Position numbers and translations under genes: made by a program. DNA of 37,897 nt, from NCBI GenBank assembly GCA_022509025.1, contig JAFLUB010000025.1, forward strand, positions 1 to 37,897, read 5' to 3'. This DNA comes from Oscillospiraceae bacterium. Lineage in GTDB: Bacteria; Bacillota; Clostridia; UBA1381. How positions within the stretch are numbered: position 1 is the stretch's first letter; the number at the start of each line of letters is the position of its first letter. Shown piece after piece: positions 25,053 to 37,897 of this stretch. The notes below the pieces were generated by a model, which saw nothing but the letters and a program-made list of their open reading frames with translations, did not search any database and was not told the DNA's origin.

Positions 25053-27518
25053 TTGAAAAAAATAATAGCTTTTCTTGCGGTACTTTGCACTATAGGAGTA
25101 GGTGTAAGCGCTCTGGCGGCTGATATTAATTTTACGTCGGAGGGAAACGGAAAGTGGATTTATTGTAACAATCCCGAGGGGATAAGAAACTGTGACCTTA
25201 TGAACAGTGATGAAAATCCGCCTTCATACATAATGAATAATGAAAATCTCACACCTGACTTGTATGATTTTCTCATTTGTCATATGAATGCTACAGATAC
25301 TGATGACGGATACGGAAAGGGATATAATATAGAACTTGATGTTGAGCTCACAGCAGTTGAAAACAGCGAGATAACAATAAATAAAGCTTTTTTTGAAACT
25401 CCGCTTGACGACGCATATATTTATAGCGACGGAACATGGGCAAAGGTGATGAATAAGGTGGGATGCCTTAACGGTCTTGCATCGTTTCTCGGCGTAAATC
25501 TTGCTGAAATGAACGGCGCATGCCTGTATGAAGCGCAGAAATATGAGAGCGTGACTATAGAATTGGAAAAGGGTGAAACCATATGGCTCAGCAGCTATAT
25601 GGACGGATACAGAGCGGTGAACTGGGGGAAGCCCGTTCAGATAATGGGTGAGATTGAACTCACATCAGGCAAGCTGAATTTCAATGTCGCCGCGTTCAAG
25701 TCCGGTGAGGAAGTGGGCGACAGAAGCGGCTTTGACCCAGAAGCGAAGTTCGGGGAATATACGTATGACCGCATGCAAAAAGGTATTGCCGATTCTCTGC
25801 CTAAGGTCAGTGTTGATTTGGAGTATAAAATAGACTATTCATATAGAGACGGAGATTTGGTTAAAAATAAGGTTTATAACCAGTATGCAAAGAACGGAAA
25901 GGTCACCGATGTATGGTGTACGCAATTAAATCCGCAGGATGATTTGTGGTCAAAGACCATATCAGCGGAATCTGACCTTTTGTATTTCAAGTATACGGAT
26001 GATTCAAAGCTGACATATTACGGTTCATCAGTAAAAAGCAATAAAAAAGATAATATATGGCTGTTTGATCCTTTCCATAGTGATACGACTGATTATGACG
26101 GAGATGCAACGTGGTTTACCGCGGCTGAGTATATGCCGAACTATCAGCTGTCCGCAAGACGCAGCAACCAGGGTTATGCGTGCAGTATGGGTAATTACGG
26201 TGTGACGGAAACCTACAACCTGAAGGTGAAAAATATCACAAACCAGGATAAATACTTTGAATACGTCGTTGAAACCAGTTCAAACGTGGCTGTGTTCGTT
26301 GAGGATGAAGCCGGAAAGCACAGCGGTATTTTAAAAGGCGAGAAGTGGGGAGTGCCGGGAGAAGTTATGGCAAGCGTGCTTATTCCGGCAGGGGAAGAGA
26401 AGGAATTTTCCTTTAACCTTGTTCTTCCGATAAACTATGTGGGAGGCATAAGAAATTCCTTTATGGTATCTGACGAAAAGCATACCGGTAAGACTTATGA
26501 GGAGTTTTTAAGCAATCCTAAAGCAAAGACCGGACCTTCCACAAGGGGAATTATGGCATATGAGGTTAAGGACAAACTCCCTGACGAGGTTAAGGATATA
26601 ATCGACGGTGATTATGATTGCTATGAATTTGTAAAGTCTGAGAATGGTTATCTGATGCGCTGGATGGCATGGGATGGAAATCCATATTACTATACTGCCC
26701 GCTGGGATTTTGTCAAGACAATCTATTACCTTGACGAGGATTATAATATTGTTGACAGGTACACTCCCGAAAAAATTGCCCGCCTTGCTATGTTCTATGA
26801 CGGATATTATTATATAGAGGATGCGGATAGCGCGCGTTTTCGTTCGCTTGACGGACAGGAATGGGAGGAATACCCGCACCGTATGCCGCTTACAGACATA
26901 ACATTTGACGCGTCAAAGCCCTCCAAATGGGCTGAGAAGGAAGTAAAGCGCGCATATGAGATAGACATTGTATCTCATAGAATCAAAGATACTCTTGTAT
27001 ACACTGATAATATGACGCGTGGTATGTTCTGTGATGTGCTTGCCAATATGCTGAGATTGAAAAACATGCTTCCCGAAGTGGGAGAAATGACATTCAGCGA
27101 TACGGAAAGCGATAATGTTTCAAGACTCTGGAACGCAAAGATTATATCGGGATATGACGAAAGCACATTCGGACCTGACGATGCGATAACTCGTGAACAG
27201 GCGTCAATGCTTCTGTATAATACGGCTAAGTATATGGGTTACATTGAGGAGAACGAAAAGACTGCTCCAAAGGAAACTTCCAAGCCTACAGAAACGTCTG
27301 AGACACCGGCGCCGGAAGAAAATCCTGTTCCTGATGGAAAAGAGCAGTATAGATATGCTGACGATAATGATATCGGCGGCTGGGCAAAGAAGGCTGTGTA
27401 CCAAATGAACTCTATAGGTATCATGTCAGGCGTAGGGGATGATAAGTTTGCGCCACAGGATAAGTACACAAATGAACAGTCAATAGCAACAATAATGAGA
27501 CTGTATGACGCGTTTTAA
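25053..27518 (+). CDS. Exported SLH-domain surface protein
   Basis: This 821-residue protein has a Sec signal peptide (KKIIAFLAVLCTIGVGVSALA, cleavage near residue 22). About 590 residues of large, mostly beta-type sequence rich in aromatic and acidic residues follow; I do not recognise this part. The C-terminus has three S-layer homology repeats (about 617-672, 675-728 and 768-821), with motifs such as ISGYDESTFGPDDAITREQ and MSGVGDDKFAPQDKYTNEQ. A Pro/Thr/Glu linker (about 732-765) precedes the last repeat. SLH repeats bind pyruvylated cell-wall polymer, so the protein should be displayed on the surface. The start is TTG after GGGAGGAAGACGCA. It follows engB by 28 bases, an unusual neighbour, and ends at a strong terminator. 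Confidence 0.88.
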   Translation: MKKIIAFLAVLCTIGVGVSALAADINFTSEGNGKWIYCNNPEGIRNCDLMNSDENPPSYIMNNENLTPDLYDFLICHMNATDTDDGYGKGYNIELDVELTAVENSEITINKAFFETPLDDAYIYSDGTWAKVMNKVGCLNGLASFLGVNLAEMNGACLYEAQKYESVTIELEKGETIWLSSYMDGYRAVNWGKPVQIMGEIELTSGKLNFNVAAFKSGEEVGDRSGFDPEAKFGEYTYDRMQKGIADSLPKVSVDLEYKIDYSYRDGDLVKNKVYNQYAKNGKVTDVWCTQLNPQDDLWSKTISAESDLLYFKYTDDSKLTYYGSSVKSNKKDNIWLFDPFHSDTTDYDGDATWFTAAEYMPNYQLSARRSNQGYACSMGNYGVTETYNLKVKNITNQDKYFEYVVETSSNVAVFVEDEAGKHSGILKGEKWGVPGEVMASVLIPAGEEKEFSFNLVLPINYVGGIRNSFMVSDEKHTGKTYEEFLSNPKAKTGPSTRGIMAYEVKDKLPDEVKDIIDGDYDCYEFVKSENGYLMRWMAWDGNPYYYTARWDFVKTIYYLDEDYNIVDRYTPEKIARLAMFYDGYYYIEDADSARFRSLDGQEWEEYPHRMPLTDITFDASKPSKWAEKEVKRAYEIDIVSHRIKDTLVYTDNMTRGMFCDVLANMLRLKNMLPEVGEMTFSDTESDNVSRLWNAKIISGYDESTFGPDDAITREQASMLLYNTAKYMGYIEENEKTAPKETSKPTETSETPAPEENPVPDGKEQYRYADDNDIGGWAKKAVYQMNSIGIMSGVGDDKFAPQDKYTNEQSIATIMRLYDAF

Positions 27519-27548: not shown

Positions 27549-27604
27549 CAGAAAAAACTCACCACTTGGAGTACGATGGTACTCTAAGTGGTGAGTTTTT
27601 TCTG
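27549..27604 (+). terminator. Strong terminator after the SLH gene
   Basis: A stem of about 25 pairs (27549-27573 with 27578-27604, one mismatch, GATG loop) contains six A and six T residues at its base. It can therefore work in both directions. It separates the housekeeping/SLH transcript from the secreted-protein operon. Confidence 0.93.
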
Positions 27605-27943: not shown

Positions 27944-28075
27944 ATGAAAAGTATGAGACGAATGATAAGTGTATTAATATCATTGTCAATGATGCCAAGT
28001 ATAGCTTGGGCAAATGAAGCGAAGTTAGAGGGTTTTTTGGATGAATATGCACATCCTAATAATGTCAAAACATAG
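27944..28075 (+). CDS. Short ORF with signal peptide (43 residues)
   Basis: MKSMRRMISVLISLSMMPS-IAWA looks like a complete signal peptide with a cleavage site after AWA. It would leave the 20-residue acidic peptide NEAKLEGFLDEYAHPNNVKT. A strong AAGGAGGAG site lies four bases before the ATG. The signal sequence resembles that of the RHS protein downstream (MRKRIISLLMIFSTFSTMIP). It could therefore be either a real secreted peptide or the 5' scrap of a broken RHS-type gene. It precedes the next gene by 101 bases with an 8-pair hairpin (28103-28127) between. Confidence 0.45.
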   Translation: MKSMRRMISVLISLSMMPSIAWANEAKLEGFLDEYAHPNNVKT

Positions 28076-28176
28076 TATGACTTATCGCAGCATCATAAAT
28101 ATAACAGACTTGGCATAGTAGTCTGTTGTATTGGAATTCTAACTATGCAAATAATTATATCAAAGGATGAAGATTT

Positions 28177-29139
28177 ATGAAAAAGAAAAAAATTATAGCA
28201 TTATGCGCAGTAGCATTTATAGGTGCTACTGCCTTTATAGGTTCATTTGTTGTCAGAGGAGCAAATGTGTACTATGATTTTGAAAACGGGGTGTTTGAAT
28301 GGCAGTCTTTGTATGGTAATGCTGACTATGAATTTTTAACTGAAGATAGTGGCAACAAGTATTTAAAGCTTACCTATAACGGTAATGAAGGAAGAGACCG
28401 AACATATTTTGATGTTCCTGCATACAAAGGCACATATATAACAAGCAAAACCATACAAGCCACGTATGATGTGAAATATTCTGAGATAAAGTCATCAAGA
28501 AACGGTGAAATACAATTTAAAGAAAGAACCGGACCCGGCAGCAGCGAAACGACTATAGTTGCAAGAGTAGCAAAAGACCAAGGGTATTTTCAGGTAAGGG
28601 GTACTGGTTTCCAACGAATTAAAGATTTAAACGGACAATATTTGCCTGTCGAAGTAGATAGATGGTACACGATTAGAGTTGTTGTAGACCTTGCAAACCA
28701 TTTGCAAAGCGTATACATTTCTGACAGAGATACCGGCAGTCTTTTGGCTCTATATGAGAATTTTGCCACGAGCAGTGATATAGATAGCATCAATATGATT
28801 TCTTTTTCATCCACAACGGATATGTGTCTTGATAATGTAAAAATATATGAACCAAGCTGCGAGAGTGGATATATTTATGGAAATCCCTATATAAAGAAAG
28901 GTACTAAGTCAACCTTTTACTTCGTTGGACAAGGCAGTGACGGAGATGTAACCACTATGCCAACCGGAACAACGACATGGAGCTTAGAGAAGAGTAAAAC
29001 AGGCGTTTCTATTAATGGTACAACAGGTGTTCTGACCACGTCAAGCTCTATAGAACCTGGGATTGTAATTATTAAAGCGGAAAGAACTGTAGATGGTGTG
29101 AAATACGAAAATAAGTATGCTGTTAATATAACGAACTAA
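28177..29139 (+). CDS. Exported LamG-like/Ig-like beta protein
   Basis: This 320-residue protein has a signal peptide (KKIIALCAVAFIGATAFIGSF, cleavage near residue 29). The next roughly 200 residues look like a concanavalin/LamG-type jelly roll: YYDFENGVFEW, the DRWYTIRVVVDLANHLQSVYI pattern and FSSTTDMCLDNVKIYEP. The last roughly 90 residues resemble a bacterial Ig-like domain (TTTWSLEKSKTGVSINGTTGVLTTSSS). No catalytic site or cell-wall anchor is evident, so carbohydrate or protein binding is most likely. The start follows AAAGGATGA. The stop codon overlaps the ribosome binding site of the next gene (TAAGGAG), eleven bases before its ATG. Function is inferred from fold appearance only. Confidence 0.75.
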   Translation: MKKKKIIALCAVAFIGATAFIGSFVVRGANVYYDFENGVFEWQSLYGNADYEFLTEDSGNKYLKLTYNGNEGRDRTYFDVPAYKGTYITSKTIQATYDVKYSEIKSSRNGEIQFKERTGPGSSETTIVARVAKDQGYFQVRGTGFQRIKDLNGQYLPVEVDRWYTIRVVVDLANHLQSVYISDRDTGSLLALYENFATSSDIDSINMISFSSTTDMCLDNVKIYEPSCESGYIYGNPYIKKGTKSTFYFVGQGSDGDVTTMPTGTTTWSLEKSKTGVSINGTTGVLTTSSSIEPGIVIIKAERTVDGVKYENKYAVNITN

Positions 29140-29150
29140 GGAGAAAAATC

Positions 29151-30704
29151 ATGAAAAAATACATAGGGTTACTATTATCGATTATAATGATATGTTCAAT
29201 ATTGGATGTGTATGCCGAAAATGATGATGAGGCAATTATGTCTGTAGAGGTTATTCCGATTCAGAGTGATACTTCAGAATTTCAGGAAGCAATAGACTCT
29301 GAGGGTGAATTTCTTGATGAGCAGGTGGAGGGAGAGCAACCCGGGACAGAACCTGTAGAAGAGACGGAGGAAGTCAACGAGGAAATTAAGAAAGATGAAA
29401 ATAATGAGGCTGAACCGAATGATATAAATTTACTTGCGGGAGATGTATGGTCGGATGCAGGCTCTTTAACAGAAGGTCGGGCAGATTTTGATACGATAGT
29501 AATAAACGGAGACTTGTATGCTGTTGGAGGCTATGGTGACTCAGGCTATACATATTCAATTGAAAGATACAATGCAAGCATAGCAGCGTGGAGCATAGTC
29601 ACTTATATTCCGGATACAATAAACGGATTTGCTGTGGCGGGAGTTGATGATAAAATATACATCATCGGTGGATATAAGGATAACACATTTTTGAATGATA
29701 TTCAGATATATGATACAACCAGCAATACATGGACAACCGGTACACCGATGATAGAGCGTAGGGATAAAGCTGCAGCTATATATGTTGACAATAAAATCTA
29801 TGTGTTCGGCGGTAGAAATGCTAAAGGCATTGTAAGTAACTATGAGTATTATGACCTGTCAAGTAATACATGGAATAAAGTCACATCCGGATTTGATAAA
29901 TCTCTGATACGTTTAGGCGCAAAAGGAAAATATATCAACGGATATGTATGCATTTATGGTGGACTTAATCAAGATTATAAAAGCATGGGTGTAGATTTGT
30001 ATTCGGCATCGGATATGACGAATGTGACAAATATTCTGTCAAAAGGAAAAGAATATATTTCAATAGCCTGGGGGAATGATAAGGCTCTCATATTATCCTC
30101 TGCTGAAAATTCATCATCTTATACTGTAACAGAAATGGTGGTGGAAGACAATAATGCATATTCAGAAACATCAAGTTTATCGGCATACCCTGCTTCATGG
30201 TATACTCAGAATGTAATGTATAAAGGATATTTGTATTGTATAGGCGGATATAATCAGACGTCTAAAAGCTATAATACAAGCACATACCGATATTCCGTAT
30301 ATTATGGAGATTTTTCAACAGGTGACGGAACAATAGACAGTGAAACGACAGGTGACGGAACCACTATAACCTTTAATGCGGAGGTAGGAAAAGATTATAT
30401 TCTGATGATAAACGTAAAAAATATGACCACATTTAACGGATATACGTTTACTTTAGAGTATCCTGATAATAGCTTTAATGTAATTGATGGCTGTGCTTTG
30501 TCTGAGTCAAGAGATTGGAATAGTAGTCAAAATAATGCAGAAGGCACTGATATACGGATTACCTCAGTAGACTCCGATAGATTATCCTTTATATCTACAG
30601 AAGAAATTCCAAGCGGAAAGAAAGTTACAGAGACGGTTAATGCTGTAATCCTGAGAGCGAATTCATCAGGCCAACGCAGTATTACATACCGTATGACAAA
30701 ATAA
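29151..30704 (+). CDS. Exported Kelch-repeat protein with cohesin-like C-terminal domain
   Basis: This 517-residue protein has a signal peptide cleaved near residue 22 and a very acidic linker (about 23-95). Kelch-type repeats follow (about 100-385), each with a GG doublet and spaced aromatic residues: AVGGYGDSGYTYSIERY, YIIGGYKDNTFLNDIQIYD, YVFGGRNAKGIVSNYEYYD, YCIGGYNQTSKSYN. These would form a beta-propeller. The last roughly 125 residues (TITFNAEVGKDYILMINV... FNGYTFTLEYPDNSFNVID) resemble a cohesin or related beta-sandwich domain. No anchor is present. It lies 17 bases before the RHS gene and is almost certainly cotranscribed with it. The cohesin resemblance is by eye. Confidence 0.78.
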   Translation: MKKYIGLLLSIIMICSILDVYAENDDEAIMSVEVIPIQSDTSEFQEAIDSEGEFLDEQVEGEQPGTEPVEETEEVNEEIKKDENNEAEPNDINLLAGDVWSDAGSLTEGRADFDTIVINGDLYAVGGYGDSGYTYSIERYNASIAAWSIVTYIPDTINGFAVAGVDDKIYIIGGYKDNTFLNDIQIYDTTSNTWTTGTPMIERRDKAAAIYVDNKIYVFGGRNAKGIVSNYEYYDLSSNTWNKVTSGFDKSLIRLGAKGKYINGYVCIYGGLNQDYKSMGVDLYSASDMTNVTNILSKGKEYISIAWGNDKALILSSAENSSSYTVTEMVVEDNNAYSETSSLSAYPASWYTQNVMYKGYLYCIGGYNQTSKSYNTSTYRYSVYYGDFSTGDGTIDSETTGDGTTITFNAEVGKDYILMINVKNMTTFNGYTFTLEYPDNSFNVIDGCALSESRDWNSSQNNAEGTDIRITSVDSDRLSFISTEEIPSGKKVTETVNAVILRANSSGQRSITYRMTK

Positions 30705-30721
30705 TAAGGGGTGATATACAT

Positions 30722-33700
30722 ATGAGAAAAAGAATAATCAGTTTACTTATGATATTTTCGACATTTTCTACAATGATACCTGTGTTTGCGGATAATGAAG
30801 AAACAGCGGAAAATATTCCCGAAATTTCATGGAAGGAGGAAATCCAAGAGGAGGCACCAACTCCTATTCCGCAAAACGATGTGTATTACAGTGTCGAGGA
30901 GGGGCAGGAAATACCTGACCTTGAACCGAATATTCATACCGAGACTATACCGGACGACTTAGTTTTTCCGGAAGATGAATACAACATGATAGGAACAAGA
31001 CTACCCAGAGCTGACGAGCCTCAGACTTTTACTTCATTGACAGAGATTGACATTTCGTGGGATAATCTGTTTGCCAATCAGTTTGGTGACACCTATCTGA
31101 GACCTTATGCAAAGAAACAGGACGGACAAACAATATCCGGTAATACAAACCGCCTTACAATTGAGGAAACCGATTTATCATTAGCCGGTAAAAACGGACT
31201 TGACGTTGTAATCAAGAGAAAACATGATAATCAAGACTATAACGAATCCTATGCGCCTGTTCGTAATTCCGGAAAAGATAATACATACCAACGTAAATAT
31301 ATGTATGCATTTACAAATACGAGAACAAATGAAAGTGTGTACATAGCATTTTATACAGAAGATGAATTCTATATATATATGTATAATGGAGCATATATAA
31401 GAAATTTAGATAAAAATTACCTGAAAACTACAACCAAGGATAGTACGAAATATTCGTTTTATGATTTCGTATATGTATCAAACCAAATAACTACTGATAC
31501 ATCTTACGCCTACTATGTATATAATGCGGATATACCGCCAATATCATTTTTAGATAATACATTATATGACAATATGTATACAATACAGTCCTGGAGGACG
31601 CTTAGCCGCAAAAGCTATATAGGCGACAATTGGAGCCTTGTTATGCCTGAAGTGTATTTGTATAGATATATGTCAGAAAGAGATGGCAGTGGCACGACTA
31701 CGGATTATTATGGAGATTATATTGGTGCGTTTCGTGATATAGATGGAAATATTTTTAATATTGACGGATACGATCAATATACAATATACAAAACAAATCC
31801 GAATCGATATACATCGAGTTTTGAGTGTAAAAGCAACTATCATTTATCATTAACAAAAATGTTCTCCTCAGAAACATTAGATGACGGAACAAAATACAAC
31901 TTTACGATTAAAGATAGCAGAGGGCTTACATATTACTTCTTTTATCCTGTGACGAAGGAAGAAGGCAACATTAATAAACGGCAGTTTTTCAATATAGTAG
32001 CGGTTGAAGACCAATACGGAAATATGATTCGTTATAAATATGATAGCAGCCTTGAAAAAGTGACCCGAATTATAGATACATACGGCAGAGAAATTAATAT
32101 AGATTATACAGAATCACAAACCACCATTTCATACTATGATGATGTGGAACAAAAAACAAATAAAATAATATATACATTCTCAACATTGCCAAGCTCTGCT
32201 CTGGATAATGATAGTCCAATCAAACCTAAAGAAGTAAAAAGATTAACTGTTACAAATCAGCTCGGGGAAAAGACTATATATGATGCGAGAGAAACGCAGG
32301 TTATGTATGCCTATCAACAACCTTCCTCTGATATTAACGGATATCCTGATGTTAGTTATGAACACGCAGACGTTGCAAAAAACAGTAATATAGAACGTAT
32401 TATATATCCTACCGGAGCGGAAACACGATACAACTATAGACGTATTTATAAACATGATAGTTATAATAGAATTCTTAATGGAGTGTATGCTGTTTCAGCT
32501 TCCTATGACATAGTAGATGGAAAGGAAGTAAACAAAAATGAATATACATTCACTAATGATGGGAATAAAATAAAGATTATCAAAACAAGTGATGCAGCGC
32601 AGCAAAAAACAGTAAGCCAATATAATGAGAAAGGTCTGAAAACAAATGAAGAAATAACACCTATATCAAAGAGTGAACCGTATTTAAAAACGAAATATAC
32701 TTATAGCGGCAATAAACCGTCGACAGTTGAGGTAAATAACAATGGACTTAAGAATATAACAGAGTATTCATATTCCAGTTATTATCCTGACTTGCTCTTT
32801 AGTATAACTACAGATGACAGCAAGATAATCTATACCTATCACGATGTTACAATAATCAATGATGGAAATAGCAGTATTTATACCTCTGATAAGCTGAAAA
32901 CAGCCACATATCAGTATAAGTCGGGTAGTAAATATGTTACTGACTATGTGGTATCAACTGAGCTTACATCGGATGAAAAGGCTATCGAATATGAGCGGGT
33001 TACGCAGAATGATGTTATTAAGTCGCAGATTAAATATGAATATGACAGAGAAGGTAATGTGACTGCTCAAAAACAGTGGACAGGCGATACAAATGCCGAT
33101 GGCGCTCTGGACGAAAAAGACGCTTTTAACACTGTGTCCAACGCATATACTAATACAACGCAGAAAATAAAGAACGTAACCAGTAGCGCGACGAATATAA
33201 TAAATGCTGATGGTATTAACGAAGGCAGTATTACCAATACGTACAAACTGAATATATACGGCTCACCGACATATAAGAAGGACTCATATGGAACGGAAAC
33301 CACCGTAGAATACGATACGCTGAACCGTCCCGTAAAATACAATCTGCCGAACGGAGGCACGCAGACTGTTGAATACAACTCAGCCGAGAGCTACACGATA
33401 GTGACCGATGCGGCGGGAATAAAATATAAAAATATGTATGACGGACTTGGCAGAATAAAGAATAAATACCGCTCAGACGGTACAAAATGGATGCTTCTTG
33501 AGGAATATACATACGATAACGCAGGCAGGCTTGCTTCGAAACGCTTTGGACAAAGCGGAGCAAGCACGGTTACGGAATCATATACATATGACGCTCTTGA
33601 CAGACTTTCGACAAGAAAGGTTTATGAAAATATGTATACCCTATTGTATACTGAAAATTATACATACGGTAACGGATATATGACAGTAAAAACAACTGCC

Positions 33701-36559
33701 GCGGACGGAACAGAGACGGCAGATGTCAGAACAGACTTTGACCAATACGGACGCACAACGAAAACACAGGCGATAAGCGGCGATACAACGCTGACTACAA
33801 CGTATGAATATGATTACCAGAACCGCAAAACAAAGGAAACTGACCCGAATGGTAACATCACGTTATATGAATATAATTATGACGGACAGATTAGCAAGCA
33901 GACTGACGCGGCGGGAAACAGCGTCACGGCGCAGTATGACCTGGCAGGTCAGTGTATATCATCTACCGATGCAAAGGGTAACACAACTGTGACGGAGTAT
34001 GATAATATCGGACGTGCCGTTATGACCACTTCGCCGTTCAGTGATAGTGCGAATTCAATAGTCAAGACATACTATGATAAAAATTCAAATGTTATCAAAA
34101 CCTCAGTCAGAAAAGATGAAAATACATATCTGAATGAAGAATATAAATATGATAACATGGGCAATCTGATTGCGGCGATATCCGGTGACAGCGCTAATAA
34201 ATCTGTCACGCAGTATATGTATGATACCGGAAACCGAATGACGAAGATGATAACAGGTCTGACGTCGTACAGCGCTAACCCGTCAGGCGGCAATGTCACG
34301 ACGTATACATATGGTAAGGACGGCTATCTCTATAGATTAACCGATCCGATGGGTGAGAAAGAAGAATATTATTGCGATAATTACGGAAACGTAACGCAAA
34401 TATATGATAAAAGAGGAGATGTTCTTAACCGTACCTATGGAGCGTATGGAGTAAAATATGAAGGGTCACCTACTAACGGATACAAGACGTTTACATATAA
34501 CAGCATAGGACAACAGATGAAGGCTATTGACCAATATAGAGATAGAGCGGCGGCAGAAGAAAGCTATGAATATGATGCGTTCGGAAGAATGATATCATCA
34601 ACCTCATCAGACGGAACAGTGCAGACGTATACTTATGATGATAATTCAAATGTGTTATCATATGGCATGATAAAGGATGGAACGACCAAGAACAGTATAA
34701 CGTATCAGTATGACGAGCTGAACAGATTGACAAAGCTTACAAATGGTAGTAATATATTGTCATACAGCTATGATGCAAACGGTAATTTATTCGCGGTCAT
34801 AGATTCAGCAAAAAGTAATTTAGATTTGCACATAATGTATAACAAAGCTAATCTTCCAGTAGTATATAGAAGCCATTACGGTGGTACAAGCTACTCTTAT
34901 ACTATGTCATATTACCTGAACGGACAAAAATATCAGGAAAACGATAAATACAATAATACAAGTAAGGTATATGCATACAACGCTCTTGGACAGCTAACAA
35001 CGGAAAACGCCTCGCGAGAAGATGAAACTACGGCAAATATATCATACACATATGATGCAAGCGGGAACCGTACCAGAATGAGCGCGTATAACACGCAGAC
35101 AGGAAAAACAGATATAACAGACTATACATATGATGCGAATAACCGTATGACTTCACTGACTAACACTATCTCAGGCGGTATAACGGATATGACCCGCTAC
35201 TATTATGACGAAGCGGGAAATACAGTTGCAGAGCAGAAAAAGTTATATACAACAGGAAACGAAGCTTCAGATATGGCGCTTTCAGGACGCACAGGCAGCG
35301 GCACGTTAAAGCTGTATACGTACGACGTATTTAACCGTCTTATAAAGTACAACGACGCAGGAACGGAAGCGGCGTACTCATACAATGCAAATAACCTCAG
35401 AGCTTCAAAGACTGTGGACGGAGAAAAGACAGACTTCGTATGGAATGGTCAGAACCTTGCAGGAGAGATGACAAACGGCATAACAACTGCGTATACTTAT
35501 GATGTAACAGGAATAGCCTTTGCGCATAAGGACAATGATGACACAGTAAGATACGTCAAAGACCCGCATGGCAATGTTGTCGAAGCATTAAAGAATGGTA
35601 AAACCGTGGGTGAATACGACTATACCGCATTTGGTACACAGCTAAAGAATAGCTCCACCATCTCCAACCCGTTCCGCTATTGCGGGGAGTATTATGATTC
35701 GAGCAGTGGCTTGATTTATTTAAGGAATCGGTATTATGATCCGAGCATTGGCAGATTTATTTCAGAAGACCCGATTAAGGCAGGATTAAATTGGTATGTT
35801 TATGCTAACAACAATCCAGTAATGTACGTTGACCCACTGGGCGAAGATGCAATAATTATTACCAATAAAAATTCAGTTGGCGTTGAAGGCGTAGCAACTG
35901 CCGGTCATACATCCGCTATATACCAAGATGCCAATGGCGAATGGTATTATACTTATTGGGGCGATAAAGCAGCGGCTGTGATACATATTCCGAATACCTA
36001 TATAAAAGAATATCAAAGAGGAGGGGATGTAACAGCTAATAGCATGGATTCTTTAGGCAATTTTAATAATGTGCTAAATAGGATTTTATCTGCACATGGA
36101 TTTGAAAATATAACGTCCAATTATACAGATGCCACGTATATTGTAGGTGATTTTACGGCTTCTTTGGAAACAGCATATAATAATGTGAATGTAGCGGCAA
36201 AGAGTGAAAGCGGCAGTAAAAAAGCACTTGATGATGGCAGTGTGGTCTTTCAAGGAAAAAATAGTGCCTATGATTTATTTCTTGTAAATTGTTTCGATAT
36301 GACATATGCTTCATTATCTAAAGGAACATTAGCAAATGGTATGAATGCAGGAACCTATATGAAGAATTTAGGCTTTAATGGAGGCTGGGTGCCCAATAAT
36401 GCAATTCCTAAATTTAGTGAAGTATTCATGAATAGTTCGTTTACATATGCAGGAGCGTATTCATCTTTATTGAATTATGCGACACTCTATAAACAAGGAA
36501 GTCCATGGGCGCAAAAATGGTCAAAGGCTAATTATGCAAATGCTGTAGTAGGATGGTGA
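30722..36559 (+). CDS. Sec-exported RHS/YD-repeat polymorphic toxin (WapA-like), permuted papain-like tip
   Basis: This 1945-residue protein has a signal peptide cleaved after VFA (residue 23) and an acidic, proline-rich N-terminal region. From about residue 430 to 1680 it has dozens of YD/RHS repeats (YTYDNAGRLASK, YEYDAFGRMISS, YTYDANNRMTSL). The RHS core closes with GLIYLRNRYYDPSIGRFISEDP and the junction motif DPLG (1704-1707). The roughly 238-residue tip that follows has GHTSAIYQDANGEWYYTYWG (His1729) and LVNCFDMTYASL (Cys1857). The His-before-Cys order suits a permuted NlpC/P60 or papain-like hydrolase. An EF-hand-like DTNADGALDEKD lies at 789-800. Known RHS proteins encapsulate and deliver a C-terminal toxin; the tip activity is inferred. 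Confidence 0.9.
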   Translation: MRKRIISLLMIFSTFSTMIPVFADNEETAENIPEISWKEEIQEEAPTPIPQNDVYYSVEEGQEIPDLEPNIHTETIPDDLVFPEDEYNMIGTRLPRADEPQTFTSLTEIDISWDNLFANQFGDTYLRPYAKKQDGQTISGNTNRLTIEETDLSLAGKNGLDVVIKRKHDNQDYNESYAPVRNSGKDNTYQRKYMYAFTNTRTNESVYIAFYTEDEFYIYMYNGAYIRNLDKNYLKTTTKDSTKYSFYDFVYVSNQITTDTSYAYYVYNADIPPISFLDNTLYDNMYTIQSWRTLSRKSYIGDNWSLVMPEVYLYRYMSERDGSGTTTDYYGDYIGAFRDIDGNIFNIDGYDQYTIYKTNPNRYTSSFECKSNYHLSLTKMFSSETLDDGTKYNFTIKDSRGLTYYFFYPVTKEEGNINKRQFFNIVAVEDQYGNMIRYKYDSSLEKVTRIIDTYGREINIDYTESQTTISYYDDVEQKTNKIIYTFSTLPSSALDNDSPIKPKEVKRLTVTNQLGEKTIYDARETQVMYAYQQPSSDINGYPDVSYEHADVAKNSNIERIIYPTGAETRYNYRRIYKHDSYNRILNGVYAVSASYDIVDGKEVNKNEYTFTNDGNKIKIIKTSDAAQQKTVSQYNEKGLKTNEEITPISKSEPYLKTKYTYSGNKPSTVEVNNNGLKNITEYSYSSYYPDLLFSITTDDSKIIYTYHDVTIINDGNSSIYTSDKLKTATYQYKSGSKYVTDYVVSTELTSDEKAIEYERVTQNDVIKSQIKYEYDREGNVTAQKQWTGDTNADGALDEKDAFNTVSNAYTNTTQKIKNVTSSATNIINADGINEGSITNTYKLNIYGSPTYKKDSYGTETTVEYDTLNRPVKYNLPNGGTQTVEYNSAESYTIVTDAAGIKYKNMYDGLGRIKNKYRSDGTKWMLLEEYTYDNAGRLASKRFGQSGASTVTESYTYDALDRLSTRKVYENMYTLLYTENYTYGNGYMTVKTTAADGTETADVRTDFDQYGRTTKTQAISGDTTLTTTYEYDYQNRKTKETDPNGNITLYEYNYDGQISKQTDAAGNSVTAQYDLAGQCISSTDAKGNTTVTEYDNIGRAVMTTSPFSDSANSIVKTYYDKNSNVIKTSVRKDENTYLNEEYKYDNMGNLIAAISGDSANKSVTQYMYDTGNRMTKMITGLTSYSANPSGGNVTTYTYGKDGYLYRLTDPMGEKEEYYCDNYGNVTQIYDKRGDVLNRTYGAYGVKYEGSPTNGYKTFTYNSIGQQMKAIDQYRDRAAAEESYEYDAFGRMISSTSSDGTVQTYTYDDNSNVLSYGMIKDGTTKNSITYQYDELNRLTKLTNGSNILSYSYDANGNLFAVIDSAKSNLDLHIMYNKANLPVVYRSHYGGTSYSYTMSYYLNGQKYQENDKYNNTSKVYAYNALGQLTTENASREDETTANISYTYDASGNRTRMSAYNTQTGKTDITDYTYDANNRMTSLTNTISGGITDMTRYYYDEAGNTVAEQKKLYTTGNEASDMALSGRTGSGTLKLYTYDVFNRLIKYNDAGTEAAYSYNANNLRASKTVDGEKTDFVWNGQNLAGEMTNGITTAYTYDVTGIAFAHKDNDDTVRYVKDPHGNVVEALKNGKTVGEYDYTAFGTQLKNSSTISNPFRYCGEYYDSSSGLIYLRNRYYDPSIGRFISEDPIKAGLNWYVYANNNPVMYVDPLGEDAIIITNKNSVGVEGVATAGHTSAIYQDANGEWYYTYWGDKAAAVIHIPNTYIKEYQRGGDVTANSMDSLGNFNNVLNRILSAHGFENITSNYTDATYIVGDFTASLETAYNNVNVAAKSESGSKKALDDGSVVFQGKNSAYDLFLVNCFDMTYASLSKGTLANGMNAGTYMKNLGFNGGWVPNNAIPKFSEVFMNSSFTYAGAYSSLLNYATLYKQGSPWAQKWSKANYANAVVGW

Positions 36560-36936
36560 TGTTTATGTATTGGGTTTTAAATTTTATCCCTATATTAGTG
36601 CAGATGTACATATATATTACGGCTATATTCACTCATATTAATTATGATTTTAACTTTGCCACATATGCTTTATTAAATTTGCTTGGGATACCAATATACT
36701 TGTTAATTATAAATATAGTTTATCTCATGCGTAAAAGTATATCGTATAGATCAAGTATAATATGTATGTTGGCAACAATCCTTTTGAATGTCCTTGTTTT
36801 ATTGATAAGTCATAAGATAAAATATGGTGTATTCATTGGAGATGTGCCTGAGGGGATTTATTATGTATTAATTATTATACCATCAATTATTGTTCTGATT
36901 GGTATAGTTATTTTCTATTTTGTAAAAGGTAGATAA
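36553..36936 (+). CDS. Four-helix membrane protein, likely immunity protein of the RHS toxin
   Basis: The 127 residues are almost entirely hydrophobic, with segments at about 5-27, 36-59, 68-87 and 100-123, short loops and a basic C-terminus (VKGR). The gene overlaps the last seven bases of the RHS gene. A second start at 36559 would overlap the TGA by one base. Polymorphic toxin genes are nearly always followed by an immunity gene. A membrane protein in this position would fit a toxin acting at the envelope or entering through it. I recognise no family, so the immunity role rests on position and composition. Confidence 0.7.
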   Translation: MVMFMYWVLNFIPILVQMYIYITAIFTHINYDFNFATYALLNLLGIPIYLLIINIVYLMRKSISYRSSIICMLATILLNVLVLLISHKIKYGVFIGDVPEGIYYVLIIIPSIIVLIGIVIFYFVKGR

Positions 36937-36945
36937 ATAGTAAGA

Positions 36946-37016
36946 GGGGCTGTCGCACAAGCGATTTTGCGCAGGTGCGGCAACCCCGTGGGATTGCTAT
37001 TTTCGTAAGCAATCCC
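36946..37016 (+). repeat. Tandem hairpins after the immunity gene
   Basis: The first structure pairs GGGG-TG-CGCAC with GTGCG-CA-CCCC (36946-36987) and encloses a smaller GCG/CGC stem. The second is a perfect nine-pair stem GGGATTGCT/AGCAATCCC (36990-37016). No T tract follows. The GGGGCTGTCGCAC opening resembles termini of some insertion sequences, and the unit lies directly before the RAYT-associated repeat. It is probably a mobile or REP-like element that may also end the operon transcript. Confidence 0.55.
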
Positions 37017-37021
37017 AGAAT

Positions 37022-37040
37022 AGGACAGGGGGACGGTTCT
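37022..37040 (+). repeat. RAYT-associated 19-bp repeat, left copy
   Basis: AGGACAGGGGGACGGTTCT is the inverted counterpart (18 of 19 bases) of the two repeats at 37851 and 37870. It lies seven bases before the -35 box of the transposase promoter. Confidence 0.8.
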
Positions 37041-37046
37041 GTTGTC

Positions 37047-37075
37047 TTGACGAATGAGACTAGAAATGATATAAT
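37047..37075 (+). promoter_or_regulatory. Promoter of the RAYT transposase
   Basis: TTGACG (37047-37052) and TATAAT (37070-37075) with a 17-base spacer. Confidence 0.75.
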
Positions 37076-37094
37076 GTGGTTGAGGTGAAAGCTA

Positions 37095-37844
37095 ATGCCA
37101 AGAAAAGCACGAGTAAAAAGTGAGAGTGGAGTATATCATATAATGCTGAGAGGAATAAATCAGCAATTAATATTTGAAGAAAAAGAAGATTATTTAAGAT
37201 TTATAGAGACATTGGAGAAGTATAAGGCAATAAGTGAATATAAAATATTTGCTTATTGCCTCATGCCTAATCATATTCATTTACTGATAAAAACAGAAAA
37301 AGAGGATTTGGACTTAATTATAAAACGGATAGCAGGAAGTTATGTGTACTGGTACAATTGGACATATCATAGAATTGGACATTTATTTCAGGATAGATAT
37401 AAAAGTGAACCGATAGAAGACGACTCATACTTTCTTACAGTTTTAAGATATATACATCAAAATCCATTAAAGGCAGGTATAGTAAAAGAAATAGAAGAAT
37501 ATGAGTTTAGCAGCTATAACGATTATATAGGAAACAGAAGCGAACTGATTGATATAGATTTTACGTATTCTGTGATAAAAAAAGATAAGTTTATCGATTT
37601 TAATAAAGAAAATAACAACGATATATGTTTAGATATACACAAACAAGAGTTCCGGTTAAGTGATAAAGAAGCAAAAGAAATTATTAAAAAAATTACAGGG
37701 TATGAAAATGCTGTGGAAATTCAGTTGATAGATCAAAAGCAGCGTAATATGTATATAAAAGAAATAAAAAAAGAAGGGCTTTCGATAAGACAAATTAGTC
37801 GATTGACCGGAATTAGTAAAGGGATTGTAGAGAAAATCAAATAA
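37095..37844 (+). CDS. REP-associated tyrosine transposase (RAYT, Y1 HUH family)
   Basis: This 249-residue protein begins MPRKARVKSESGVYHIMLRGIN, a typical RAYT opening. It has the HUH metal-binding motif in MPNHIHLLIK (His-x-His) and the probable catalytic tyrosine in RIAGSYVYWYN. The characteristic GHLFQDRYKSEPIEDDSYFLTVLRYIHQNPLKAG follows. The C-terminal 60 residues end in a helix-turn-helix (GLSIRQISRLTGISKGIVEKI), as in Firmicute members. RAYTs cleave and join single-stranded DNA at REP-type hairpins and move those repeats rather than themselves. GAGGTGAAA precedes the start. The gene is bracketed by inverted 19-bp repeats, which fits this role. It appears intact. Confidence 0.92.
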   Translation: MPRKARVKSESGVYHIMLRGINQQLIFEEKEDYLRFIETLEKYKAISEYKIFAYCLMPNHIHLLIKTEKEDLDLIIKRIAGSYVYWYNWTYHRIGHLFQDRYKSEPIEDDSYFLTVLRYIHQNPLKAGIVKEIEEYEFSSYNDYIGNRSELIDIDFTYSVIKKDKFIDFNKENNNDICLDIHKQEFRLSDKEAKEIIKKITGYENAVEIQLIDQKQRNMYIKEIKKEGLSIRQISRLTGISKGIVEKIK

Positions 37845-37850
37845 GACGAT

Positions 37851-37887
37851 AGAACCGTCCCCTTGTCCTAGAACCGTCCCCTTGTCC
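37851..37887 (-). repeat. RAYT-associated 19-bp repeats, two direct right copies
   Basis: AGAACCGTCCCCTTGTCCT occurs twice in tandem (37851-37869 and 37870-37888), inverted relative to the copy at 37022-37040. A further partial ACGTCCCCT runs to the window edge, so the array may continue. Confidence 0.85.
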
Positions 37888-37897
37888 TACGTCCCCT

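Follow-up and report, generated by a model that had tools for sequence, protein, structure and literature searches.

How might an RHS toxin without a detectable wall-binding domain be held and aimed outside the cell, and what part might two further, putatively exported proteins, encoded directly before it, play in this? The question is raised by contig JAFLUB010000025.1 of an Oscillospiraceae bacterium (assembly GCA_022509025.1), which we analyzed over its full 37,897 nucleotides (hereafter the window). The window is one entire contig (G000:C18) of a 2.49-Mb genome that comprises 85 contigs and is 87.55% complete. Between positions 28177 and 36936, it carries a four-gene operon arrangement on the plus strand, leading from a 320-residue protein and a 517-residue Kelch/cohesin-like protein to a 1945-residue RHS protein and a 127-residue hydrophobic protein. 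We propose that the operon probably encodes an RHS polymorphic toxin for export by Sec, a membrane immunity protein, and, as a protein of its own, the propeller part of the toxin, which would clasp the RHS shell with a cohesin-like tail.

Gene arrangement and domains of the upstream proteins

An earlier note on this DNA had described the operon arrangement, and its strand, gene spacing, and open reading frame (ORF) coordinates agree with ours. The elements of the operon are as follows.

28177..29139, plus strand: 320-residue protein, predicted to be exported; relatives lie directly before genes for Kelch proteins with a cohesin-like (Coh) domain
29151..30704, plus strand: 517-residue predicted exported adaptor with Kelch repeats and a cohesin-like C-terminal domain (Kelch_1, family profile, RHS neighbors)
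30722..35830, plus strand: RHS/YD-repeat part of the 1945-residue protein, residues 1-1703, including a signal-peptide-like start and the core (RHS_repeat, Rhs_assc_core)
35831..36559, plus strand: C-terminal toxin-like tip of the same protein, 242 residues from DPLG (residue 1704), with a His before an Asn-Cys motif
36553..36936, plus strand: predicted 127-residue hydrophobic membrane protein, immunity candidate; homologs stand behind tip relatives

The four ORFs are separated by gaps of 11 and 17 bases and then by a 7-base overlap, and by eye the 320-, 517-, and 1945-residue proteins have signal-peptide-like N termini.

The Kelch/cohesin-like nature that the earlier note had ascribed to the 517-residue protein is supported. 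Kelch_1 matches it with an E value of 4.4e-33, the repeats covering approximately residues 100-375, and the cohesin-like domain takes up the last ∼142 residues (approximately 376-517). A profile of eight relatives of this C-terminal domain matched cohesins in the PDB (3l8q, E 5.7e-8; 1tyj, E 9.7e-5), a sequence match by which the domain is related to cohesins. The window's domain alone gave no meaningful Pfam match; the Pfam cohesin family (PF00963) was matched weakly by 2 of the 8 members (best E 0.0011), and the RCC1-Coh protein of genome G219 reached 20.1 bits against it, below the cut-off of 24.1. As for the 320-residue protein, its C-terminal part looks Ig-like by eye. Pfam and PDB searches returned no significant match for it and gave no support to the LamG label of the earlier note, which is unconfirmed.

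Co-occurrence of adaptor and RHS genes

Among 81 related genomes, the 517-residue protein was matched in 6, the RHS protein in 27, and the 320-residue protein in 14. Full-length Kelch-Coh proteins are encoded at five loci in four genomes (the window's, G009 with two loci, G019, and G839, the last detected with the Coh profile described below), those of the other loci being 36 to 53% identical to the window's. At all five, the order is 320-residue protein, Kelch-Coh protein, and RHS protein, each the immediate neighbor of the next. The earlier note had taken the two upstream proteins for dedicated partners of the RHS protein, a view that largely holds: the full-length Kelch-Coh protein, far from occurring mostly without RHS genes, has one beside it at every locus, whereas relatives of the 320-residue protein also occur elsewhere. 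Since no such relative was seen at the Coh-RHS loci G040:C53, G027:C186, and G028, the 320-residue protein appears to accompany the Kelch type only.

We then extended the comparison with a profile of the cohesin-like domain (Coh profile), which was run on 70 genomes of the family to which the window's genome belongs and on genomes of the class Clostridia. Within the family, 14 genomes were matched at 18 places, and at 10 of these an RHS gene lies directly 3′ of the Coh gene. Two more places, both in G021, have a truncated 3′ ORF with weak similarity to RHS N termini, mostly in the signal-peptide region (E 1e-4 and 0.011); the rest comprise one helical-domain ORF (G026), three ORFs with export-like starts, one unrelated gene, and one contig end. 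In 381 genomes of the class, 35 were matched, 4 of them belonging to the window's family. From outside the family, 35 regions were taken (places with E up to about 2.5e-7), with 39 Coh genes between them. Ten stand directly before an RHS gene, at gaps of 14 to 192 bases, in eight genomes, which come from three families and include four of a single genus. Four stand before another Coh gene. The N-terminal parts of the Coh genes vary (Kelch, fn3, and CBM96 by Pfam; subtilisin with RCC1-like sequence by eye), and the cohesin-like tail is, as judged by the profile, the constant element among the adaptors.

Kelch and RHS parts are also found together in other forms. A scan of named genomes, which yielded 79 distinct loci from the best 80 of 138 relatives, contained five loci with Kelch and RHS outside the window's family. 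The two genes are adjacent in two Vallitalea genomes and one Syntrophomonas, and a subtilisin (S8) domain, Kelch, and RHS form one chain in Candidatus Formimonas warabiya (4762 residues) and Acetivibrio alkalicellulosi (4371 residues). For Vallitalea, Syntrophomonas, and Formimonas, the searches found no cohesin in the parts that correspond to the adaptor, and the Coh profile match in the Acetivibrio chain was marginal (E 0.015). This last chain may be ScaP2, as its composition fits the layout peptidase-Coh2-peptidase-XDoc2-GalOx-RhsA-unknown published for that protein (PMC6780208).

Coh operons adjoin agrB at six loci, three of them Coh-RHS loci (G009:C28, G839, and G013) and three with a 268- to 361-residue partner behind the Coh gene (G369, G219, and G177).

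agr genes at the six loci: L065 5767-8428, L114 396-2591, L191 4644-7293, L338 3991-4605, L343 2817-3440, L345 8732-9316

An AgrD-like ORF is present at five of the six, and kinase and/or regulator genes were recognized by eye at G009:C28, G839, and G013. AgrB has 46 matches in 28 of the 70 family genomes, 43 of them above the cut-off; a rough estimate from this family-wide count (44 entered) would give ∼0.2 neighbors of this kind by chance. The window's own genome has no AgrB match. Of 38 AgrB regions, some cut by contig ends, a Coh gene is present only in that of G013, and an RHS core ORF in just one further region (G021:C59). In this family, agr is thus no general companion of RHS.

Several observations count against a fixed partnership. 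Relatives of the 320-residue protein and Kelch proteins without the cohesin-like domain also occur with no neighboring RHS gene, at G014:C2 and G027:C83, where the neighbors are VWA/SLH-like proteins by eye. In the class, 16 of the 39 Coh genes precede a 268- to 361-residue protein and nine precede other genes or a contig end. Conversely, a Coh gene is missing in front of 4 of the 12 RHS genes examined that share the window's N-terminal type (G023:C11, G029:C106, G029:C120, and G040:C16), and the Coh profile found no match at all in G023 (99% complete) or G029 (98%); the adaptor is therefore not obligatory. Several of the contigs compared break off within RHS genes. Finally, a tree of the 12 RHS N termini mixes adaptor types: G839 does not group with the remaining Kelch-type loci, and G009:C28 pairs with a gene that has no Coh gene before it.

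Might the operon, then, be a mere stack of surface-protein genes that share export or density-controlled expression, the adaptor and the RHS protein forming no complex? The varied partners of Coh genes and the Coh-free RHS genes of the same type would fit, as would the various proteins with export-like starts (by eye) that agr genes adjoin in the family. We nevertheless consider such stacking rather unlikely, given that Coh genes lie immediately 5′ of RHS genes across families and that one-chain fusions occur. Moreover, the 16 proteins of 268 to 361 residues fall into three sequence groups with weak links between them, and the profile of one group matches the N termini of two RHS proteins, that of G001 (whole-protein E 4e-7) and that of G013 (2e-7), which are likewise encoded behind Coh genes. 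The other two group profiles gave weak or no matches to RHS N termini, and the window's RHS protein was matched by none of the three. By eye these 16 proteins (loci L322, L324, L326-L328, L330, L333, L336-L339, L342, L343, L345, L346, and L349) are helical, and no Pfam match was found in five of them that were tested.

Dockerins as possible partners of the cohesin-like domain

A second alternative is that the operon specifies a non-cellulosomal scaffoldin or surface complex, in which enzymes with dockerins would be the ligands of the cohesin-like domain, and the RHS protein would be a structural or adhesive neighbor. The domain is related to cohesins, and the single-chain Acetivibrio relatives have been published as unconventional scaffoldins, the dockerin module of one of which is reported to bind cohesins (PMC6780208). 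Dockerin matches occur in 49 of the 70 family genomes, including two in the window's genome. Pfam found no dockerin in the proteins of the window's operon, however, and there was no dockerin match in four genomes with Coh-RHS loci, G009 (97% complete), G040 (98%), G027 (98%), and G028 (86%), which makes it unlikely that the cohesin-like tail needs a classical dockerin. Relatives of the tip and of the membrane protein also stand together behind other RHS genes, as described below, and we regard the scaffoldin explanation as unlikely.

A calcium-loop-like motif at residue 789 of the RHS protein was considered as a cohesin partner and rejected, as it does not track the Coh genes: the loop is present in RHS proteins without a preceding Coh gene (L071 and L077) and unmatched at L065 and L067, which have one.

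Toxin-like tip and candidate immunity protein

The 1945-residue protein (30722-36559) matches RHS_repeat (E 1.6e-36) and Rhs_assc_core (E 6.6e-25). Pfam yields only RHS_repeat for it at E values up to 1; a wall-binding domain was not found, and SpvB, FN-plug, and NHL are not among its Pfam matches. By its architecture, it is likely an RHS polymorphic toxin. Sequence comparison indicates a variable C-terminal tip behind a constant RHS core, with RHS relatives at L067 and L068 that keep the core match, have no tip match, and are followed by different ORFs.

The tip is rare in the genomes searched. Of 391 class genomes, six, with the window's among them, had a match to one tip sequence used without its first residues. 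A profile run on 398 genomes from the phylum hit the window's genome only, and a further weak relative was found in G013. For the window's tip, there was no match in Pfam or NCBIfam and none of value in the PDB. Six aligned tips share the Asn-Cys motif (6/6) and the preceding His (5/6), and the pattern Y(N/D)(L/I)...NC is common to tips and the six LRAT proteins that ranked best in the class. A comparison of the tip and LRAT profiles scored 26.6 against at most 18.6 in 100 shuffles, with a probability of only 18% over 18 columns, and one of the six tips, not the window's, gave an LRAT match with E 2.3. These features suggest a possible resemblance between the tip and LRAT or permuted papain-like enzymes, and a lipid- or membrane-acting enzyme of that kind would fit a membrane immunity protein.

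Such a protein may be specified by the last gene of the operon, whose 127-residue product has about four hydrophobic stretches, resembles a four-helix protein by eye, and has no family match. In G249, a tip 64 to 71% identical to the window's is carried by a divergent RHS protein of another family, and a homolog of the 127-residue protein is encoded directly 3′ of it (26% identity, 6e-9). In G219, another homolog (43%, 2e-26) lies behind the remnant of a tip, which is interrupted by two stops. These two genomes represent two families other than the window's. On the opposite side, the gene 3′ of the tip relative is not recognizably of the same immunity family in G421, G389, and G013, and in G054 a membrane-like ORF at this position is only 19% alike. 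The pair thus travels together in part of the relatives, and the 127-residue gene is a candidate for the cognate immunity gene of the tip. Together with the RHS matches, the relatives elsewhere support what the earlier note had read from the sequence, namely an RHS protein with a toxin-like C terminus followed by an immunity-like gene. That the RHS protein instead serves adhesion or self-recognition at the surface, with a tip that is no toxin, we consider improbable: although the activity of the tip is a prediction and the window's tip lacks a family match, tips differ on the same core and conserve the Asn-Cys and His residues, and the immunity-like gene overlaps the RHS stop codon and joins the tip elsewhere.

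Two kinds of loci with unusual tips were also seen. At L093 4882-7089 (G389:C2), an RHS tail has a dockerin-like stretch (by eye) just 5′ of the core end as well as a relative of the window's tip. At L073 (G013:C16), L081 (G008:C2), and L069 (G006:C46), truncated RHS tips alternate with proteins with export-like starts at the positions expected for immunity genes, some of which carry RCC1-like or SLH-like sequence.

Flanking features of the operon

27555..27598, plus strand: intrinsic terminator with a 20-pair stem and a T tract, left edge of the operon
27944..28075, plus strand: 43-codon ORF with a signal-peptide-like start and a strong ribosome site, candidate only
36946..37016, plus strand: two strong hairpins, possible transcript end (fold of 36937-37050)
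37021..37870, plus strand: Y1/IS200-like transposase gene (37095-37844; Y1_Tnp, E 2.1e-15) within inverted repeats, bordering the system and not part of it

The strong terminator on the left (-46 kcal/mol, z -10) was reported in the earlier note and is borne out by its fold; it sets the operon apart from the preceding gene for an SLH-domain protein (25053-27518). On the right, the hairpins that the note had named as the border are indeed strong, but the edge belongs partly to the Y1 element, whose inverted repeats (37021-37048 and 37843-37870) bracket the transposase gene: the stretch 36937-37050 (-53 kcal/mol, z -6) takes in a third hairpin from the repeat of this element. The stretch 37021-37889, with the transposase gene between inverted repeats that contain the motif TAGGACAGGGGGACGGTTCT, resembles a REP-associated element, and the contig stops just past the repeat. 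A scan of the window for the terminator consensus gave 8 sites against 5.5 ± 2.2 expected, no clear overall excess, and promoter-like sites numbered 64 against 51 ± 7; we therefore claim no promoter.

The earlier note had also counted a gene at 27944. It is a 43-codon ORF with a good ribosome site and is not established as a gene. It occupies the position where some relatives have agrD; its identification as AgrD was rejected, as the ORF has no Cys and the genome no agrB match.

Discussion

In the mechanism that we favor, the RHS shell would be exported by Sec and bear an enzyme-like tip, and the Kelch propeller protein would be its extracellular partner. Its cohesin-like tail would contact and clasp the shell with no need of a classical dockerin, and the propeller would serve to hold the shell or to aim it, be it at the cell surface or at a target; the same-chain propellers of bacterial Teneurin-like toxins offer a comparison (PMC13018210). 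The separate adaptor would stand in for the covalent link of the subtilisin-Kelch-RHS single chains, and the 320-residue protein may be an accessory of the Kelch type. The tip may act against bacteria, with lipids or membranes as its target, and the 127-residue membrane protein would shield the producer. More tentatively, Clostridia might possess a class of extracellular toxin machines, not described so far and built from several proteins, to which the operon would belong. In these, a cohesin module from outside the cellulosome would connect, without a dockerin, interchangeable heads (Kelch or RCC1-like propeller, subtilisin, or fn3) with their partner, an RHS shell or some other protein, and some members would be switched on by cell density through a neighboring agr system.

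Chains that join RHS to a propeller or to a cohesin have been published, as have RHS polymorphic toxins. WapA-type toxins have a wall-binding domain within the toxin protein, and in the TcB/TcC proteins of Tc toxins a propeller acts jointly with the RHS shell. In contrast to the former, no wall-binding domain was found in the window's RHS protein, which has a separate propeller-cohesin partner; in contrast to the latter, it has no SpvB match and the propeller is of another family. Bacterial targets seem the more likely ones for it. With the WapA-type RHS toxins of Gram-positive bacteria, among them those of Streptococcus suis (PMC12704120), the window has in common an RHS shell, predicted to be exported as in those toxins, a polymorphic tip, and a downstream immunity-like gene. 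SpvB together with an integrin-like propeller is named as a Tc-toxin signature (PMC3482391).

Two published groups come closer. Bacterial Teneurin-like toxins join a β-propeller with a YD/RHS shell and have variable C-terminal toxins, and their Gram-positive members are predicted to be Sec-exported and surface-anchored (PMC13018210); theirs is an NHL propeller with an FN-plug in one chain, whereas the window has a Kelch propeller in a separate, cohesin-tailed protein. The ScaO/ScaP unconventional scaffoldins of Acetivibrio cellulolyticus and Clostridium (Acetivibrio) alkalicellulosi (PMC6780208, PMC3413522) share subtilisin-like peptidase, PPC, cohesin, galactose oxidase (Kelch-type), and RHS modules in varying combinations. 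They are, however, giant single chains with dockerins from cellulosome producers, whereas the window has separate genes and a 320-residue accessory, no Pfam dockerin in the operon proteins, and a tip that can be recognized as such and is followed by an immunity-like gene. The earlier note had known of no described system with this gene set. For the split set this stands, in that the split operonic form, its recurrence in several families, and its agr neighbors were not found among the matches listed from the open-licence literature (titles and beginnings of abstracts), but the modules have been published in one chain as ScaO/ScaP (PMC6780208).

If the clasp is real, it would explain how an RHS toxin that lacks its own anchor could be held and aimed, and cohesin modules would gain a role beyond cellulose degradation. 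The published unconventional scaffoldins would then be recast as likely toxins, and the agr neighbors would point to toxin operons that some Clostridia may regulate by cell density.

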